A DNA stretch of 35,653 nucleotides from an uncultured Fimbriimonadaceae bacterium (GTDB lineage: Bacteria; Armatimonadota; Fimbriimonadia; Fimbriimonadales; Fimbriimonadaceae). The DNA lies in the NCBI GenBank assembly GCA_937961665.1, contig CALGMO010000125.1, forward strand, positions 1 through 35,653, in the 5' to 3' direction. A program made the position numbers and the translations under genes. The notes under the pieces were generated by a model. It did not search any database. It worked only from the letters and a program-made list of their open reading frames with translations, and was not told the origin of the DNA. Positions 18-7,418 of the stretch are shown here, piece by piece (the first letter of the stretch is position 1; each line of letters opens with the position of its first letter).

Positions 18-23
18 CATAGT
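18..23 (+). promoter_or_regulatory. candidate -10 element of the first pseudopilin
   Basis: The hexamer CATAGT matches four of six bases of TATAAT and ends five bases before the ATG at 29. No Shine-Dalgarno sequence lies between. If it is the -10, transcription would begin at or next to the start codon, giving a leaderless mRNA. The -35 would fall outside the window. The same 5-nt geometry recurs at 755-760 and 2611-2616. Confidence 0.3.
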
Positions 24-28
24 GGGCC

Positions 29-712
29 ATGCGGGCCCAAAGTCCCAGACGCCTCCGCGCTTTCACGCTGATCGAGCTGCTGGTGGTGTTCGCGATCCTG
101 GCGATCCTGGCGGCGATCCTGCTTCCGGTCTTCGCCTCGGCCAAGGAGCGCGCCAAGTCCGCGACCTGCCAGAGCAACCTGAGGCAGCTGGGGCTTTCGT
201 TCGCGCTGTACGCGTCGGACTGGGACGGCGTGCACCCGCCGGTCTTCGAGTGGAAGGGCCGGCTGCAGCCCTACGTGCGGACCGTCGAGACCAACCGCTG
301 TCCGAGCCGCCCAGGCCTGCCGTGGTGGTACGGGCAGGGCTACAACGTCGGCTTCGCGCCGATGGCCGTCCGGGGCTTCGCGGGCGCCTCTGAGGCGGAG
401 GTGACGGAGCCGGCCTCCAAGCTGTTGGCGGTGGAGTGGGACCGCTGCAACGCCGGGCCTCCCATCGGGCCGCCGGCGCTGCTCGCGGGCGGAGCCACCA
501 GCTACTGGGCCGTGTGCCGGGTGCACCTCGGGTCGTCGAACGCGCTGTTCGGCGACGGCCACGTGCGGAGCCTGAGGCCGGAGGCCTACCACAGCAACAC
601 CGTGCGGATCGACGAGGAGGGCAGGCCCGTGCCGCCGCCGGGCGACGAGCTCCGGGTGGTGGACGAGCGCGTGTGGCGCGCGTTCTGGGACACCGCCGCC
701 CCGGGACTGTAG
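29..712 (+). CDS. type II secretion/pilus-like pseudopilin with N-terminal methylation motif
   Basis: A 227-aa protein with a class III prepilin signal: a short basic leader, then FTLIELLVV and a hydrophobic helix to about residue 35. Processing by prepilin peptidase is expected between Ala and Phe; the -1 residue is Ala rather than the commoner Gly. The C-terminal part has a near-perfect H-X9-DG motif (HLGSSNALFGDG, about residues 165-176), typical of the DUF1559-type pseudopilins abundant in Planctomycetes and Armatimonadota. The length is usual for this group. These proteins are thought to be exported and exposed at the envelope; individual ligands are mostly unknown. The nearest neighbours are the binding-protein genes starting 53 bp downstream, with no shared function evident. 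No Shine-Dalgarno sequence precedes the ATG. Confidence 0.88.
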   Translation: MRAQSPRRLRAFTLIELLVVFAILAILAAILLPVFASAKERAKSATCQSNLRQLGLSFALYASDWDGVHPPVFEWKGRLQPYVRTVETNRCPSRPGLPWWYGQGYNVGFAPMAVRGFAGASEAEVTEPASKLLAVEWDRCNAGPPIGPPALLAGGATSYWAVCRVHLGSSNALFGDGHVRSLRPEAYHSNTVRIDEEGRPVPPPGDELRVVDERVWRAFWDTAAPGL

Positions 713-730
713 ATTCATAGAAAAGAAGGA

Positions 731-760
731 TTCTCAAGCGTGGAGGACTTTTCGCACAAT
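731..760 (+). promoter_or_regulatory. candidate promoter of the first binding-protein pair
   Basis: TTCTCA (731-736) and CACAAT (755-760) are separated by 18 bases and match the sigma-70 consensus at four of six positions each. The -10 ends five bases before the ATG at 766, so the transcript would be essentially leaderless. A GGAGGA at 742-747 is 18 bases from the ATG, too far to be its ribosome binding site. The AT content of 713-760 stands out against its surroundings. Confidence 0.35.
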
Positions 761-765
761 GGGTC

Positions 766-1635
766 ATGGCCCGGCTCAGGGCGATCCTGTGGCCGACGAT
801 CTGCGTCCTGGCGCTTGGATGTTCCGTCGCGGGGCGCGGAGGCCAGACGTCGGCTCCGCGACCTGAAAAGCCCCAGTTCCTAGAGCGGCGGGACGGTCGG
901 CCGGCCCCGCACACCCTCGTTCTGGCCTGCAACGAGTGGTGGCCGTACGCCGGTCGCGCGGGCGGAGACCGCGAGGGCTTCGCCGTGGACCTCGTCCGAG
1001 CTGCGTTGGCGAGGATCGGTTGTCGGCTCGAATACCGCACCCGCCCGTGGGCCCGGTGCGTGCAGGAGATGCGCGAGGGCAAGGTCGACGGCGTGCTGGC
1101 CGCCTACCGGGTGCCGGGCCGAGACTGGCTGTACGGCGAGGTGCCCTTGGGTTTGGGCCCGGACGGCGACGTGGACTTCGTCGTCCTGAAGCGGAAGGGC
1201 TCGGCTTGGCGCTACCTCGGGCCGGAGTCGCTGCGAACCGCCCGTCTGGCCGTCGTCGAGGGCTACCACTACCCCGAACCGATCGAGGGCCGGCTGTACG
1301 GCGCAGAAAGGCGGGGTCTCGTCGTCGTTTCGGGCGACGATCCGACCGACCGCTTGCTGCGCGCGCTGGCAGCCGGCCGAGCGGACGCCGTTGTGGAGAA
1401 TCGGGCGGTGCTGCAGGCCGCTCTGGCCGCGTCGCCCGAGCTTCGCGGCCGCCTCGAGGAGGCCGGCACCCTGCCGGGCTGGAAGGCCTACGTGCAGCTC
1501 CGGCCCGACCTGCCCGGCGCGCGCGAGCTGCTCCGCGAGCTGGACCGGGCGCTGCTCGAGGTGTACCGATCGCCAGACTTCGAACGGATCCTCGCTCGCT
1601 ACGGCCTGCGGCCGACACACGCCCCCCCGCCATGA
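766..1635 (+). CDS. family 3 solute-binding lipoprotein, array copy 1
   Basis: A 289-aa periplasmic-binding-protein-like lipoprotein (SBP_bac_3 type). The signal peptide ends in VLALGC, an approximate lipobox with the acylated Cys at about residue 19. The mature part starts with the ligand-lobe motif ACNEWWPY, then GFAVDLVRAAL, RPWARC and DGVLAAYRVPGRDW, an order typical of polar amino-acid binding folds. Arg119 in PGRDW occupies roughly the place of the ligand-carboxylate Arg of HisJ-like proteins; that alignment was made by eye. Its stop overlaps the next start by four bases (ATGA). Copy 3 (2622-3566) is its closest relative in the array. No permease or ATPase gene is present, so it may be an orphan receptor rather than a transporter subunit. 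The ligand cannot be told. Confidence 0.85.
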   Translation: MARLRAILWPTICVLALGCSVAGRGGQTSAPRPEKPQFLERRDGRPAPHTLVLACNEWWPYAGRAGGDREGFAVDLVRAALARIGCRLEYRTRPWARCVQEMREGKVDGVLAAYRVPGRDWLYGEVPLGLGPDGDVDFVVLKRKGSAWRYLGPESLRTARLAVVEGYHYPEPIEGRLYGAERRGLVVVSGDDPTDRLLRALAAGRADAVVENRAVLQAALAASPELRGRLEEAGTLPGWKAYVQLRPDLPGARELLRELDRALLEVYRSPDFERILARYGLRPTHAPPP

Positions 1636-2513
1636 GAACCCTCGCCGTCCTCCTCGTTGTGCTTTCGATCGGATGCGGCAAGCAGGCGCCGCAAGAGGGC
1701 GCGGAGCCCCAGCCGCCCGTCGCCAAGCCGACCGAATCCGAAAGGCTCCGATCGGCCCCGCCCCGCAGGCTGGTTTTCGCGGGCAACGAGTGGTGGCCGT
1801 GGACCGGCAAGTCCGCCTCGGGGGAGGAGGGGTTCACGGTCGACCTGGTCCGCGCGGCCCTACGGCGGATGGGCTACGAGATGGAGTACCGCGTCCGGCC
1901 TTGGGCCAGGGTGGTGCGCGAGCTGGAGGCGGGGCAGATCGACGGCACCACCTGCGCCTGCAGCGGGCCGGAGCGCCCCTGGCGCTTCACGCGGGTGCTG
2001 ATGGGCCTCGGGCCCGAGTGGGTCAGCGATGTGGTCGTGCTGCGATCCAAGGCCAGCCGCTGGACGTGGAAAGGTGCCGAGTCTCTGCGCACCGCCCGGC
2101 TGGCGCTCGTCGGGAACTACCACTATCCGAGCCCTCTGAAGGAGCGGCTGGCGAGGCCCGACGAGAAGCTCGTGATCGTGAGCGGAGAGGACCCGGCCGC
2201 TCGCATGCTCCAGTTGGCGGCCAAGGGCAGCGTCGACGCCGTGGCCGACGACCGCCTGGTGTTCGAGAACGCTCTGCACCGCCACCCTGAGCTTCGCTCG
2301 AAGGTGGAGGAGGTCGGCACGCTGCCCGCCTGCCGCCTGCACGCGGCGTTCAGCCCCAGACTGCCCGACGGCGAGAGGCTCGCCCGCGAGCTCGATCGGG
2401 CGCTGCTCGAGGTCTACCGCTCGCCGGAGTTCCCGCGCATCCTGGAGCGCTACGGCCTCCGTCCGGCCTCCGGCAGGCGTGCCGCCGATCCGTCTCCGCG
2501 CACGGGACGGTGA
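1632..2513 (+). CDS. family 3 solute-binding lipoprotein, array copy 2
   Basis: A 293-aa paralogue of copy 1. The ATG at 1632 is chosen because it overlaps the previous stop (ATGA) and gives a clean lipoprotein signal ending VLSIGC; the open frame extends far upstream only as a shadow of copy 1. Conserved blocks are GNEWWPW, GFTVDLVRAAL, RPWARV and GLGPEWVSDVVVL. The segment after the hinge differs from copies 1 and 3: CACSGPERPW replaces AYRVPGRDW, but an Arg (Arg115) is kept. It ends with the family-typical tail LLEVYRSPEFPRILERYG, shared with copies 1 and 3. Translational coupling to copy 1 is likely. The protein should be membrane-anchored on the periplasmic side. Ligand unknown. Confidence 0.83.
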   Translation: MRTLAVLLVVLSIGCGKQAPQEGAEPQPPVAKPTESERLRSAPPRRLVFAGNEWWPWTGKSASGEEGFTVDLVRAALRRMGYEMEYRVRPWARVVRELEAGQIDGTTCACSGPERPWRFTRVLMGLGPEWVSDVVVLRSKASRWTWKGAESLRTARLALVGNYHYPSPLKERLARPDEKLVIVSGEDPAARMLQLAAKGSVDAVADDRLVFENALHRHPELRSKVEEVGTLPACRLHAAFSPRLPDGERLARELDRALLEVYRSPEFPRILERYGLRPASGRRAADPSPRTGR

Positions 2514-2586
2514 GGCCCCGGCGGCACCCGCCAGACCGATCTCCGCCGGCTCGGGCCGCCGAAGTTCGCGGACCGCACCGATTCCT

Positions 2587-2616
2587 TTGTTTTTAGGATT
2601 CTGATTGGACGATAAT
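2587..2616 (+). promoter_or_regulatory. candidate promoter of the second binding-protein pair
   Basis: TTGTTT (2587-2592), an 18-base spacer and GATAAT (2611-2616) make the best sigma-70-like promoter in the left part of the window, inside an AT-rich patch of otherwise GC-rich DNA. The -10 ends five bases before the ATG at 2622 and no Shine-Dalgarno sequence intervenes, so a leaderless transcript is predicted. The rest of 2514-2586 is GC-rich and shows nothing clear. Confidence 0.45.
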
Positions 2617-2621
2617 GAAGC

Positions 2622-3566
2622 ATGGCTCGGTCGCGGGCCCTGCTGGCACTCGGGATCACCGTCGCCTCGGGCGGGTGCGCTCCGGTGGCGCGGCCACCGG
2701 AGCGGGTCCGTGCCGATTCGCCGGCCGCGCTCGAGCGAAAGAGGCAGGCGGCTCGCGCCCTTCCGCAGGAGTCCACCTTGCGGCTCGGCTGCAACGAGTG
2801 GCCGCCGTACGTTCTGGGTCCGGGGAGCCTGCACGAGGGGTTCGCCGTGGACCTGACGCGGGAGGCGCTGAAGAGGATGGGGTGGCGCCTGGAGTTCCGG
2901 AACCGCCCTTGGGCCCGATGCCTCCAAGAGATGCCGCGAGGCGAGTTGGACGGCGTGCTGTGCGCCTACCGCGCGCCGGGACGGGACTGGCCGTTCGGCG
3001 AGGTCCCCTTGGGGCTGGGGCCGGATTGGAGCGGCGAGTTCCTGATCCTGCGTCGAAAGGGCTCCGCCTGGCGGTGCCAGGGGCCGGCGGACCTGCGGAG
3101 CGCGCGGCTGGCACTGGTCGAGGGTTACGCCTACCCGGAGCCCTTGGCGAGCCGTCTGAAGGCTGGCGACCCTGGCATCCTGCTCGTAACCGGCGACGAC
3201 CCCATGACGAGGCTGGTCGAGGTGGTGGCTCGAGGGCGGGCGGAGGGCACGGTGGAGCAGAGGCTTCCGCTGGAGGCCGTGCTGAAGCGCAGACCGGACC
3301 TGCGGGACAAGGTGGAGGAGGCCGGGGTTCTTCCCGGCTGGAGGGTGTACGTGGCTTTGCGACCGGACTTCCCCAACGCCGAGGCCGTTCTGAGGGAGCT
3401 CGACCGTCGCCTGCTCGAGGTCTACCGCTCGCCGAGGTTTCGAGCGATCCTCGCGCCGTACGGGTTGGAGCCCTCCGGGGGTGCCGGCGGAGCTCCCACA
3501 GGGAGCGGGCGGCCGACGCGGCCAGGAGGGCAGCGCGCGAGAGAATGGAACGCGCAGTCTGGGTGA
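2622..3566 (+). CDS. family 3 solute-binding lipoprotein, array copy 3
   Basis: A 314-aa paralogue, closest to copy 1 by eye: GCNEWPPY, GFAVDL, RPWARCLQEM, DGVLCAYRAPGRDW and the block GEVPLGLGPD are near-identical in both. The signal sequence is short and hydrophobic with a Cys in SGGC, a weak lipobox. Arg121 sits in the PGRDW motif. The C-terminus extends about 25 residues past the shared YRSPRFRAILAPYG tail in a Gly/Arg-rich stretch that overlaps the start of copy 4 by 22 bases, so the tail may be unselected read-through. Copies 3 and 4 form a second overlapping pair like copies 1 and 2. Receptor or uptake role unknown; no transporter partner is nearby. Confidence 0.83.
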   Translation: MARSRALLALGITVASGGCAPVARPPERVRADSPAALERKRQAARALPQESTLRLGCNEWPPYVLGPGSLHEGFAVDLTREALKRMGWRLEFRNRPWARCLQEMPRGELDGVLCAYRAPGRDWPFGEVPLGLGPDWSGEFLILRRKGSAWRCQGPADLRSARLALVEGYAYPEPLASRLKAGDPGILLVTGDDPMTRLVEVVARGRAEGTVEQRLPLEAVLKRRPDLRDKVEEAGVLPGWRVYVALRPDFPNAEAVLRELDRRLLEVYRSPRFRAILAPYGLEPSGGAGGAPTGSGRPTRPGGQRAREWNAQSG

Positions 3567-4429
3567 GCCGCGGCCGGGTGCTGATCCCCATCGCTCTCGC
3601 CCTGTGGGCGGGTTGCGGCCGGCCTCCGTCGGAAGCGGGCGGACCAGCACCCGCGGCGCCACCCTCGGTCAAGGGGAGACCTCCGCCCGAGAAGAGGCCT
3701 CTCACCCGGCTGGTGGCCGTGGCCGACGCATGGATGCCGTTCACCGGAGAGGCCGGCGGAGAACTCGGGGTTGCGGTGGAGCTCGCCCGGGCGGCGCTGC
3801 TGCCGAGCGGCTACCGCGTCGAGTACCGAGTCCATCCTTGGAGCCGATGCCTCGAACTGGTGCGTGCGGGGCAGGCCGACCTCGCCGTCTGCGCGGTGCC
3901 CGCCGAGGAGCCGGATCTGGTGTTCCCCTCGGAGCCGGTGGCGTACAGCCGGAGGCGCCTGTTCGTCCTGCTTGGGTCCGAGCTGGACCGGCGGGGTTGG
4001 CGCTGTTCGGGGCCGGAGGAGATGGACGGGCTGCGCCTGGTGGTGCCGCAGGGCTACGACCTCGGGCCGGCGTGGCGCCGCTACGCCGACCGGGCGCGCC
4101 GGGCCGGAACGTTGTTGGAGGTGGGAGGAGAAAACCCGTTGGATCGGCAGATCGCGGCGCTGGAGCTCGGGCGGGCGGACGTGGCCTTGGCGAACGCCGA
4201 CGTGGTGGCGTGGCGTCTGCGGCAGCTCCGGCGGGAGGGTCTGCTGGTGCCGGTCGGCGAGGCCGGGCGCGAGCCGCTGTTCGTGGCGGTCAGCCCGAGG
4301 AGAAAGGACGCCAGGGAGCTGGCGGGGCTCTTGACCCAAGGCCTGAGGCGCCTGCGGCGGGAGCGAGCGCAGGAGGAGATTCGAAGACGGTACGGCGTCT
4401 CGCGGGAGGCTCTTCCAGCCGCCCGGTGA
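3545..4429 (+). CDS. divergent family 3 solute-binding lipoprotein, array copy 4
   Basis: A 294-aa protein. The ATG at 3545 lies inside the end of copy 3 and gives a signal peptide ending ALWAGC. It keeps the fold markers in order: VADAWMPFTG, GVAVELARAAL, HPWSRC and the second-lobe LGRADVALANADVVAWRLRQ, but it is much less similar than the other three. The Arg-containing loop of copies 1-3 is here PAEEPDLVF, with Glu122 where the others have Arg, and the NEWWPY motif is DAWMPF. A changed or lost ligand site is a reasonable inference. It is the last gene before the sensor kinase, 115 bp upstream of it, so a regulatory, ligand-presenting role is possible but unproven. Confidence 0.8.
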   Translation: MERAVWVSRGRVLIPIALALWAGCGRPPSEAGGPAPAAPPSVKGRPPPEKRPLTRLVAVADAWMPFTGEAGGELGVAVELARAALLPSGYRVEYRVHPWSRCLELVRAGQADLAVCAVPAEEPDLVFPSEPVAYSRRRLFVLLGSELDRRGWRCSGPEEMDGLRLVVPQGYDLGPAWRRYADRARRAGTLLEVGGENPLDRQIAALELGRADVALANADVVAWRLRQLRREGLLVPVGEAGREPLFVAVSPRRKDARELAGLLTQGLRRLRRERAQEEIRRRYGVSREALPAAR

Positions 4430-4487
4430 TCCCCTGGTCCGCCCTGCGGACGGGGCTAGGCCGACGCCAGCGCCCTTCTGCGGCAGG

Positions 4488-4516
4488 TTTTTTGCACGGA
4501 GACCGGAAAATATCCT
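4488..4516 (+). promoter_or_regulatory. weak candidate promoter before the sensor kinase
   Basis: A T6 run (4488-4493) and TATCCT (4511-4516) are separated by 17 bases in the only AT-rich part of the 115-bp gap 4430-4544. The T run could instead belong to a terminator of the binding-protein array, but the stem before it is poor. A short GCCCT/GGGGC hairpin lies at 4441-4456. Confidence 0.22.
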
Positions 4517-4544
4517 CTGGAAGCGTCCCCGTAGAGGAGCCTGC

Positions 4545-6458
4545 GTGGAACAATCATCAGACTCGCGCGCGAGGGTAGGAGACATGGCAGGAAGGCGATG
4601 GGGCCTGAACACGCGGATCGCTGCCGCCCTGCTGGCGCTGGGGCTCGCGATGCTGGCCGTGCTGGCGGTGCACCGCAGCAGACTCGACCGGATCGAGGCC
4701 GAGGAGGCCGCGCGGGCGGTGGGCCTGCGCAAGGCGCAGAAGCTGTCGGAAACCCTCGTGAGCCCGCTCTACGAGCTCAGCATGCCGTCGGTGGAGTCCG
4801 CGGTGCGCGGCGAGTTCGACGACCCGGCGGTGGTGCAGATCGCGGTCTACGAGGATCCCGAGAAGCCGCCGCTGGCGGTGTTCCGCCGTGAGGGCGAGGC
4901 GGTGGAGAAGGCCTCGGAACTGCGCAGCCATCCTATGGACCTTCGCTTCGATTTTTCCGTCACGCGCCAGGCGCCCGGTTCGGGCGGCGAGGTGCTCGGG
5001 GCGGTCTCCGTCTGGACCTGTCCCGAGCAGGCTCTGTCGGCCATGGCCGGGCGCACCCGCCGGCGCCTGCTGGAGGAGTCGCTCGTCATCCTGGTCCTCG
5101 TGGCTGCGGCGTTTCTCGCCCTGCGTCGGCTGGTGGTCGTCCCGATCGGCCGCGTGACGGCGGCTCTGGAGCGCACGGCGGAGTCCGTGCGGATGGAGGA
5201 GGACCTGGGGACCGTCGCCGAGGAGCTGCACCGGAGCCTGCGCTCGGTGCGCGGAGGATCCCTGGAGTACGAGCGGTTGCTGCACGGCATCCAGGCGCTC
5301 GTCGCGGCGCTGGTCCGCCGTCAGAACGAGCTGGAGCGCATTCTGCAGACCGTGCTTGGAACGCTCAGCGTGGTCGACGCCCGGACCCAGGAGGTGAAGT
5401 TCGCGAACGACGAGTGGCGCGAGAAGCTCGGCATGTGCGCGGTGGAGGGCCGCCTGCGGGACGATTGGATCGAGCGGTTCGTGCACCCCGAGGATCATGC
5501 GACGGTGCTCGGGGCTTTCCAGCAGGTGCTGGAGCGGCGGGTTCAGGCCGGCCCCTACGTGACCCGCCAGATCCTGGAGGACGGCTCGGTCCGGTGGTGG
5601 CGGTGGATCGCCGCTCCGCTGGACATCGACGAGCGGGGAGAGGTGCTGCTCGAGATGAAGCACGCCCTGGACATCACCGACCTGCGGCGCCTGCAAGAGG
5701 AACTGGAGCGGGCGAACACGGTGTTGGAGGAGACCGTCGAGGAGCGCACGAGGGAGCTGGTCGCCGCCAACCGCGAGCTGGAGTCGTTCGCCTACAGCGT
5801 TTCGCACGACCTGCGCGCCCCGCTTCGAGCGATCAACGGGTTCGGCCAGATCCTGATCGAGGACTACTCCGACAAGCTGGACGAGGAGGGCCTGAACTGC
5901 GTGCGGCGGATGGTCGCGGCCGCCGATCGGCTCGGCCAGCTGGTGGACGCGCTGCTGCATCTGTCGCGCGTCACCCGGGCCGAGGTGCGAAGGCAGCCCT
6001 TGGGGTTCGGCGCTCTGGTGGCCGAGCTGATGGCCGAGCTGCGAGAGGAGTCCCCCGAGCGGCATGTGGAGGTGCACGTGGAGCCGGGCCTGACGGTGAA
6101 CGCCGACCCCGTGCTGACCCGCTCGCTGCTGCAGAACCTGCTCTCAAACGCTTGGAAGTACACGCGGGGCAATCCGGATGCGCGCATCGAGATCGGCTCC
6201 TGCACCGTCGACGGCCGGCCGGGCTTCTTCGTTCGCGACAACGGCGTCGGCTTTGACGCCTCGCAGCTGGAGAAGGCGATGAAGCCGTTCCAGCGCCTGC
6301 ACAGCGAGAAGGAGTTCGAGGGCCTGGGCGTCGGCCTGGCCACCGTCCAGCGGATCGTGGCCCGGCACGGCGGGAAGATCGAGGCCGTCTCCGCACCGGG
6401 CGAGGGAGCGGAGTTCCGGGTCACCTTGGAGCCCGGTCCGCCCGGTCCCAAGGGCTGA
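4545..6458 (+). CDS. membrane sensor histidine kinase with periplasmic domain, PAS and HisKA/HATPase
   Basis: A 637-aa kinase. Order: TM1 about 26-43; a periplasmic domain of about 135 residues; TM2 about 178-195; a HAMP-like linker; a PAS domain about 265-380 (VDARTQEVKFAN to MKHALDITDLRRL); a coiled coil about 380-412; HisKA with His421 in SVSHDLRAPLRAI; then an ATPase with N box NLLSNAWKYT, G1 DNGVGFD and G2 GLGVGLATV. All residues needed for ATP binding and autophosphorylation are present. The H-box and ATPase resemble phytochrome/PAS-type kinases. The GTG at 4545 has GAGGAG five bases upstream; ATG 4584 (MAGRRWG) is an alternative with GAGGG eight bases upstream. No response regulator lies in the window. 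Adjacency to four periplasmic binding proteins suggests they might feed its external domain; this is inference. Confidence 0.88.
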   Translation: MEQSSDSRARVGDMAGRRWGLNTRIAAALLALGLAMLAVLAVHRSRLDRIEAEEAARAVGLRKAQKLSETLVSPLYELSMPSVESAVRGEFDDPAVVQIAVYEDPEKPPLAVFRREGEAVEKASELRSHPMDLRFDFSVTRQAPGSGGEVLGAVSVWTCPEQALSAMAGRTRRRLLEESLVILVLVAAAFLALRRLVVVPIGRVTAALERTAESVRMEEDLGTVAEELHRSLRSVRGGSLEYERLLHGIQALVAALVRRQNELERILQTVLGTLSVVDARTQEVKFANDEWREKLGMCAVEGRLRDDWIERFVHPEDHATVLGAFQQVLERRVQAGPYVTRQILEDGSVRWWRWIAAPLDIDERGEVLLEMKHALDITDLRRLQEELERANTVLEETVEERTRELVAANRELESFAYSVSHDLRAPLRAINGFGQILIEDYSDKLDEEGLNCVRRMVAAADRLGQLVDALLHLSRVTRAEVRRQPLGFGALVAELMAELREESPERHVEVHVEPGLTVNADPVLTRSLLQNLLSNAWKYTRGNPDARIEIGSCTVDGRPGFFVRDNGVGFDASQLEKAMKPFQRLHSEKEFEGLGVGLATVQRIVARHGGKIEAVSAPGEGAEFRVTLEPGPPGPKG

Positions 6459-6485
6459 GCGGAGCGGCGGGGCATCCTCGCGGGC

Positions 6486-7418
6486 ATGAAGGTGGCGGTC
6501 ATCGGCGCCGGCAAGGTGGGCTCCGCCGTCGTGGGAGACTTGATGCGCGTCGGCTCGGTGTCCGAGATCGTGCTGGTTTCGCGAGACCGCTACCGGGCCG
6601 AGGGCGAGGTGCTGGACTATCAGCACACCACCTCGTTCACCCACTACCCCTGCGTCGACGTGCGCGTGGGCGGGTACGAGGATTGCGCCGGAGCCGACTT
6701 GGCGGTGATCGCCGCCGGGCCGAGCATCCAGGAGGGTCAGACGCGAACGGACCTGGCCGCGCAGAACGTGCAGGTTCTGAGAGAGATCTTGAACGGTTTG
6801 GGCAGAGTCTGCCCCCGGTGCTTCCTGATCCTCGTCACGAACCCGGTGGACGTGCTCACCTACGCGGCGTGGAGGCTCTCCGAGCGCCCGCGGAGCCTGG
6901 TGATCGGCACGGGCACGATGATCGACACGGCGCGGCTGATCCAGTCGATCGCCAGCGCGTACCGCATCGACCCGAAGAACGTGTTCGCCTACATGCTGGG
7001 CGAGCACGGCGAGACGTCGTTCGCCGCTTGGAGCATGGCCAACATCTGCGGGCTGAGTCTGGAGGAGTTCGGCAAGCTGCACGTGGCCGCGCGCATCGAC
7101 CGGGAGCGGGAGGAGCTGCGGGCCAAGCAGGCTGGCTATGAGATCCTGCGCCGCAAGGGCTACACCAACCACGGGATCGCCGCGGCGGTGGCGCGGCTGG
7201 TGATCGCCATCGCGTCCGACGAGAAGTGCATCCTGCCCGTCTCGGTGCCTCTGGAGGGGGAGTACGGCCTGCGGGACACGGCGCTCTCGGTGCCGTGCGT
7301 CGTGGGCGCGGACGGCGTGGAGAAGGTGCTGGAGTTCCCTCTCTCGCTGGAGGAGCGGCGAAAGCTGCAGGCGAGCGCCGACCATCTGGCGGAAGCGATC
7401 GCGCGGGCGGGCCTGTAG
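6486..7418 (+). CDS. lactate/malate dehydrogenase-family NAD-dependent oxidoreductase
   Basis: A 310-aa enzyme of the LDH/MDH fold. The N-terminal GAGKVGS binds NAD; the catalytic pieces are TNPVDVLTY, GTGTMIDTAR with Asp147 and Arg150, and the proton-relay His174 in GEHGET. The mobile-loop Arg87 (QTRTDL) is kept. The substrate-discriminating position, Gln in LDH and Arg in MDH (residue 102 in dogfish numbering), aligns with Ile81 in AGPSIQEGQTR, so neither lactate nor malate specificity can be assigned; other 2-oxo acids are possible. Length is normal for the family. It starts 27 bp after the kinase stop without a clear Shine-Dalgarno sequence and may be read through from it. No fermentation genes are adjacent. 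Confidence 0.85.
   Translation: MKVAVIGAGKVGSAVVGDLMRVGSVSEIVLVSRDRYRAEGEVLDYQHTTSFTHYPCVDVRVGGYEDCAGADLAVIAAGPSIQEGQTRTDLAAQNVQVLREILNGLGRVCPRCFLILVTNPVDVLTYAAWRLSERPRSLVIGTGTMIDTARLIQSIASAYRIDPKNVFAYMLGEHGETSFAAWSMANICGLSLEEFGKLHVAARIDREREELRAKQAGYEILRRKGYTNHGIAAAVARLVIAIASDEKCILPVSVPLEGEYGLRDTALSVPCVVGADGVEKVLEFPLSLEERRKLQASADHLAEAIARAGL

Follow-up and report, generated by a model that had tools for sequence, protein, structure and literature searches.

A conserved, transporter-free array of four solute-binding lipoproteins as candidate co-receptors for a neighboring Fimbriimonadales sensor kinase

A stretch of 35,653 nucleotides from an uncultured Fimbriimonadaceae bacterium (the window) encodes four paralogous solute-binding protein (SBP) lipoproteins in tandem, followed by a membrane sensor histidine kinase, in an array that is transporter-free and conserved in its genus. 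We lean towards the view that the four orphan SBPs are co-receptors for the neighboring kinase and together make up an extracytoplasmic receptor set. Under this mechanism, duplication of an amino-acid-type SBP would have produced four membrane-anchored lipoproteins, each binding a different small molecule; the ligand-closed SBPs would dock on the kinase at its periplasmic Cache domain, docking would alter kinase autophosphorylation, and a response regulator encoded elsewhere would carry the output. Ligand classes, docking and signal direction are the parts of this scheme that we infer.

Results

Four SBP lipoprotein genes precede a histidine kinase gene

The window begins at the end of contig C125, in a 2.88 Mb, 95%-complete genome of the Fimbriimonadales; the far-upstream side of the array is unreadable here because of the contig end but can be read in a congener. 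A pilin-like gene is followed by four SBP_bac_3 lipoprotein genes, and these by a histidine kinase gene:

29-712, pilin-like DUF1559 protein with an N-terminal methylation motif, the immediate 5' neighbor of the array
766..1635, + strand, SBP1, SBP_bac_3 lipoprotein of 289 aa, lipobox LALGC19, class I
1632..2513, + strand, SBP2, SBP_bac_3 lipoprotein of 293 aa, lipobox LSIGC15, class I
2622..3566, + strand, SBP3, SBP_bac_3 lipoprotein of 314 aa, lipobox ASGGC19, class I
3545..4429, + strand, SBP4, SBP_bac_3 lipoprotein of 294 aa, lipobox LWAGC24, class II
4584..6458, + strand, orphan sensor histidine kinase of 624 aa (from Pfam, N-terminal fold and start-codon analysis)

SBP1 and SBP2 overlap by 4 bp (ATGA), SBP3 and SBP4 by 22 bp, and the kinase gene begins 154 bp 3' of SBP4. 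The SBPs are separate genes with their own stop codons and signal peptides, not the single polypeptide of a BvgS-type fusion. Complete open reading frames, lipoboxes and above-threshold family scores bear out the original prediction of four tandem homologous SBP lipoproteins in two overlapping pairs: SBP1 to SBP4 score 39.6, 35.2, 29.0 and 32.5 bits against the Pfam SBP_bac_3 profile (PF00497; cut-off 26.4), and all four carry lipobox signal peptides, the ASGGC of SBP3 being less canonical. Judged from their pairwise identities (50%, 57% and 34% to SBP1 for SBP2, SBP3 and SBP4), the common ancestry of the four is far beyond chance. Assignment to the Phosphonate-bd family of AioX/PhnD sensing proteins (PF12974) was rejected, as profile scores stayed below the cut-off of 27 bits (18.4 and 20.6 bits, with none for SBP3 and SBP4).

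An AlphaFold model of SBP1 (pLDDT 86.6) adopts the two-lobed periplasmic binding protein fold, with PDB matches spanning most of the domain (Z 20-23); the best of these, the kinase sensor domain 3h7m (Z 23.3, rmsd 2.7 over 223), is tied with many transport SBPs. Within the predicted motif R-x-(R/H)-P-W-(A/S)-R, the P-W-x-R portion is invariant in all four proteins; it is not unique to them, being present in Pseudomonas orphan SBPs too, while the leading R-x-R/H is specific to the genus.

Five bases 5' of four ATGs, those of SBP1, SBP3, the SBP1 ortholog of the congener SKW193 and the pilin, we observed the -10-like hexamers CACAAT, GATAAT, CATAAT and CATAGT (window 755-765 and 2611-2621; L104 9170-9180; window 18-28), an arrangement suggestive of leaderless transcription and of a separate promoter for each SBP pair. 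A promoter and terminator scan of 600-6600 returned nothing exceeding shuffled sequence.

The array is transporter-free

The original prediction also placed no permease nearby. Indeed, PF00528 is absent from the contig (22 copies lie elsewhere in the genome), and this 95%-complete genome contains no PF00497 gene beyond the four SBPs. TIGR01726, the polar amino-acid permease family with which PF00497 proteins work, is missing from the genome and from both close relatives that we examined, the congeners JAOACB isolate SKW193 and DPBN isolate UBA8783 (Fimbriimonadales/Armatimonadetes MAGs; the three genomes are G000, G083 and G084). About 5% of the window's genome may be missing, and the absence of TIGR01726 is repeated in the two further genomes. 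The same search gave hits above the curated cut-off in 11 of the 14 control genomes and in five other genomes from this taxonomic family. By the measure of a cognate permease, then, the array does not belong to a polar amino-acid ABC transporter, nor was a matching permease found just outside the window: in SKW193, which has 18 PF00528 domains, the nearest pair lies ~28 kb upstream of the array and is not of the TIGR01726 family.

Transport is the commonest role of SBPs, and the PF00528 domains of the two genomes, the SKW193 pair included, offer candidate partners; the four SBPs might thus feed an unlinked transporter, whether an ABC permease encoded at another site in the genome or a carrier of a different kind. 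We regard this as unlikely, given that the type of permease that partners PF00497 is absent, that no permease gene was found beside the array in any congener, and that cross-class pairing of SBP and permease is unusual.

The array is conserved in its genus

When 291 genomes of the phylum were searched with a profile of the four SBPs, strong matches were confined to the three species of this genus; strong matches to the kinase sensor domain were likewise confined to them. SKW193 has pilin, four SBPs, kinase and LDH in identical order, and UBA8783 has SBP3, SBP4, kinase and LDH as far as its contig reaches. The number of SBPs is the same in the window and SKW193 but their make-up differs: SKW193 carries orthologs of SBP1 (S_c1, 61%) and SBP2 (S_c2, 70%) together with two class mates of SBP4 (S_c3 and S_c4), and lacks SBP3. 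The UBA8783 copies are orthologs of SBP3 (U_c3, 73%) and SBP4 (U_c4, 78%). Values of dN/dS were ~0.2-0.35 for the SBPs, ~0.27-0.56 for the kinase and 0.08-0.16 for LDH; the SBP values, obtained with congener orthologs, mark the four at the sequence level as real genes under purifying selection. An SKW193 copy with an internal TGA was considered as a pseudogene and rejected, the reading merely running through beyond the normal stop.

The array thus stands beside the kinase in all three species, although this is a weak test: synteny across the three close relatives extends just as much to the pilin (76% identical and in the same position in SKW193), to LDH and to more of the flanking genes, so that conserved linkage of array and kinase says little about function. 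Because array and kinase sensor match strongly only within the genus, their association by sequence has one origin and is not a repeated one. For LDH, a close ortholog outside the genus was not found.

PF00497 is a frequent kinase input elsewhere in the phylum

The closest relatives that we found beyond the genus are Pseudomonas orphan PF00497 proteins (e.g., L026, L027 and L028), at 25-30% identity. As in the array, PWxR is invariant among them, in a sample biased towards the motif by a locus search built on PWxR-based patterns, and no polar amino-acid permease was detected in the fetched flanks; unlike the array, they are nearly always single copies, and most of their loci lack an adjoining histidine kinase. 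At most of the Pseudomonas loci the orphan PWxR SBP is preceded, at a distance of ~1.5 kb, by a large GGDEF protein (L028-L103, about 4000-6300), a recurrent neighborhood that makes SBP-cyclase signaling conceivable. A PWxR SBP from a Paucimonas (Burkholderiaceae) MAG, L032, is nested within the Pseudomonas set in the tree, possibly through horizontal transfer or misbinning.

Elsewhere in the Armatimonadota, PF00497 often serves histidine kinases as their periplasmic domain, which makes it a common kinase input in the phylum. Such fusions were confirmed by Pfam in G009, G070 and G221 and read from sequence in G071, G028, G140 and G216; the transmitters of those in G070 and G009 are 41-43% identical to the window kinase. 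PF00497-type domains fused to PAS-kinase modules lie at loci L109, L110, L149, L153, L154 and L155 of other Armatimonadota, the last of which (G140) seemingly has two in tandem, in a BvgS-like arrangement. PF00497 also occurs in SBP-permease fusions elsewhere in the phylum. Weak class-level matches in G015, G021, G029 and G030:C53 were set aside as fusions of this kind from a different subfamily, and one in G030:C78 as a chance match to a LacI-type regulator.

The kinase is modeled with a Cache/PDC-like sensor

The kinase comprises a first transmembrane helix, a periplasmic single-Cache/PDC-like domain, a second transmembrane helix, a linker, PAS_3, HisKA and HATPase_c, with no receiver domain. 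Its start is most likely ATG 4584 rather than GTG 4545, a choice favored by an SD and by alignment with the congeners. A model of the N-terminal part (232 residues from base 4599; pLDDT 80.9, from three sequences only) places a long N-terminal helix and a PAS-like sheet, the hallmarks of a Cache/PDC domain, between the two transmembrane helices, and a Pfam search of this part returned no named domain. Structural comparison of the modeled sensor (VIA-align) gave as its best matches CitA 2j80 (Z 10.3, rmsd 2.1 over 96) and, with the higher score, the periplasmic LapD-type output domain 4u64 (Z 11.3, rmsd 3.7 over 118). Between the window and SKW193 the periplasmic domain is 44% identical, HisKA 83% and HATPase 75%; the linker and PAS have diverged as much as the sensor, so the divergence is not sensor-specific. 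No response regulator is encoded on the contig, and 19 receiver domains are found elsewhere in the genome.

The likeness of the modeled fold to ligand-binding Cache domains such as that of CitA raises another explanation, that the Cache domain of the kinase is itself the receptor for a small molecule, with the SBPs being neighbors or regulatory targets that act as periplasmic scavengers or buffers. Published cases in which a kinase and the SBP encoded next to it fail to interact would fit, the sensor domains of AgtS and AruS not being bound by the adjacent SBPs (PMC11113362). We nevertheless consider this improbable, slightly more so than an unlinked transporter: it leaves unexplained why four diverged SBPs were kept without a transporter across the divergence of the genus, and it fits poorly with the frequent SBP-kinase fusions in the phylum.

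The predicted ligand pockets differ between copies

In HisJ and LAO, a pocket Arg holds the ligand carboxylate and an Asp holds the amino group. Reading the pocket columns from an alignment to amino-acid SBPs, we found that SBP1-3 retain the canonical Arg (R119 in SBP1), whereas SBP4 and the other class II copies have Pro in its place. The canonical Asp is retained in SBP2, its ortholog and the Pseudomonas relatives; elsewhere it is Asn, Gln or Gly (Asn212 in SBP1, Gln in SBP3, Asn in SBP4). SBP2 is therefore the copy with both residues, and the amino-acid-anchoring residues are partly or wholly lost in the other three. Such differences in canonical pocket residues point to at least three pocket types and suggest that different copies probably bind different ligands: firstly, that of SBP2 is probably an amino acid; secondly, those of SBP1 and SBP3 are probably carboxylates without a free alpha-amino group; thirdly, that of SBP4 would be something other than these classes.

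It is very improbable that the fold serves otherwise here, as an enzyme (cyclohexadienyl dehydratase-like) or in an envelope structural role: ancestral and modern cyclohexadienyl dehydratases do match the profile by sequence and the canonical anchoring residues are missing from the SBP4 class, but amino-acid-binding proteins and kinase sensor domains match equally well or better, and sensing agrees better with the lipid anchors and with the presence of four copies next to a kinase.

Discussion

Several observations favor a co-receptor role for the four SBPs. The array holds the only PF00497 genes of its genome while TIGR01726 is missing from three of three genomes of the genus; the order of array and kinase is kept in SKW193 and, as far as readable, in UBA8783; the kinase N-terminus is modeled as a Cache/PDC domain in a phylum with PF00497-kinase fusions; and the 3h7m match of SBP1 joins a record in which the genes of characterized SBP-kinase couples are neighbors in 10 of 11 cases (PMC11113362). 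Other observations weigh against it. Adjacency alone can mislead, as AgtS and AruS illustrate (PMC11113362); conserved adjacency adds little given a single evolutionary origin and flanking synteny; the Cache domain could bind a ligand of its own; and SBP4 and the kinase gene are 154 bp apart, on a contig that encodes no response regulator. Together, the lack of a matching permease, a unit kept in three species, the Cache-like sensor and the phylum's fusions partly support the earlier proposal of a receptor set for the adjacent kinase, whose element of contact between array and kinase stays a prediction.

A more elaborate form of the co-receptor reading, which we offer tentatively, is a multi-input receptor, in which four SBPs with different ligands would all dock at the same surface of a single Cache-domain kinase; the kinase would read a metabolite blend, and species would swap inputs by duplication and loss of SBP genes while keeping four. 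If this holds, a conserved set of four SBPs that lacks a transporter would exemplify in nature how one kinase takes input from several ligands, and would offer a rare functional handle on signaling in Armatimonadota. Sister species differ in their repertoire, one having SBP3 and the other a second SBP4-type copy in its stead, which opens the link between SBP set and kinase sensor to testing.

Separate binding proteins that serve signaling rather than transport are known in LuxP, TorT and AioX (PMC5908839), and in RmcA, a c-di-GMP phosphodiesterase, an SBP_bac_3 domain senses arginine (PMC8846402). In LuxP/LuxQ, TorT/TorS and AioX/AioS, as here, a separate SBP gene lies beside that of a membrane kinase with a periplasmic sensor, without a transporter subunit, the gene arrangement of an SBP-activated kinase. 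The sensor of LuxQ is also PDC-type. These three systems differ from the array in having one SBP, from other families (AioX is PhnD-like), where the array has four PF00497 lipoprotein paralogs, and the array kinase, unlike theirs, lacks an adjacent response regulator. To our knowledge, characterized SBP-kinase couples have one binding protein per kinase, and a search of open-access papers for several SBPs serving one kinase gave no match. BvgS-type kinases, including those of other Armatimonadota, likewise take their input through PF00497 modules and have a PAS-HisKA-HATPase architecture, and BvgS structures match the SBP profile; there, however, the SBP lies within the kinase polypeptide, whereas the array SBPs are lipoproteins in their own right and the neighboring kinase has a Cache-like domain. 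The SBPs of PAAT ABC transporters (HisJ, LAO and GlnH) share fold and Pfam family with the array proteins, in contrast to which their partner permease is lacking from the array genome and their anchoring residues are lost, in part or entirely, in three of the four copies. The SBP-activated kinase is thus a known kind of system; the combination of four paralogous lipoproteins with one Cache-like kinase is new.
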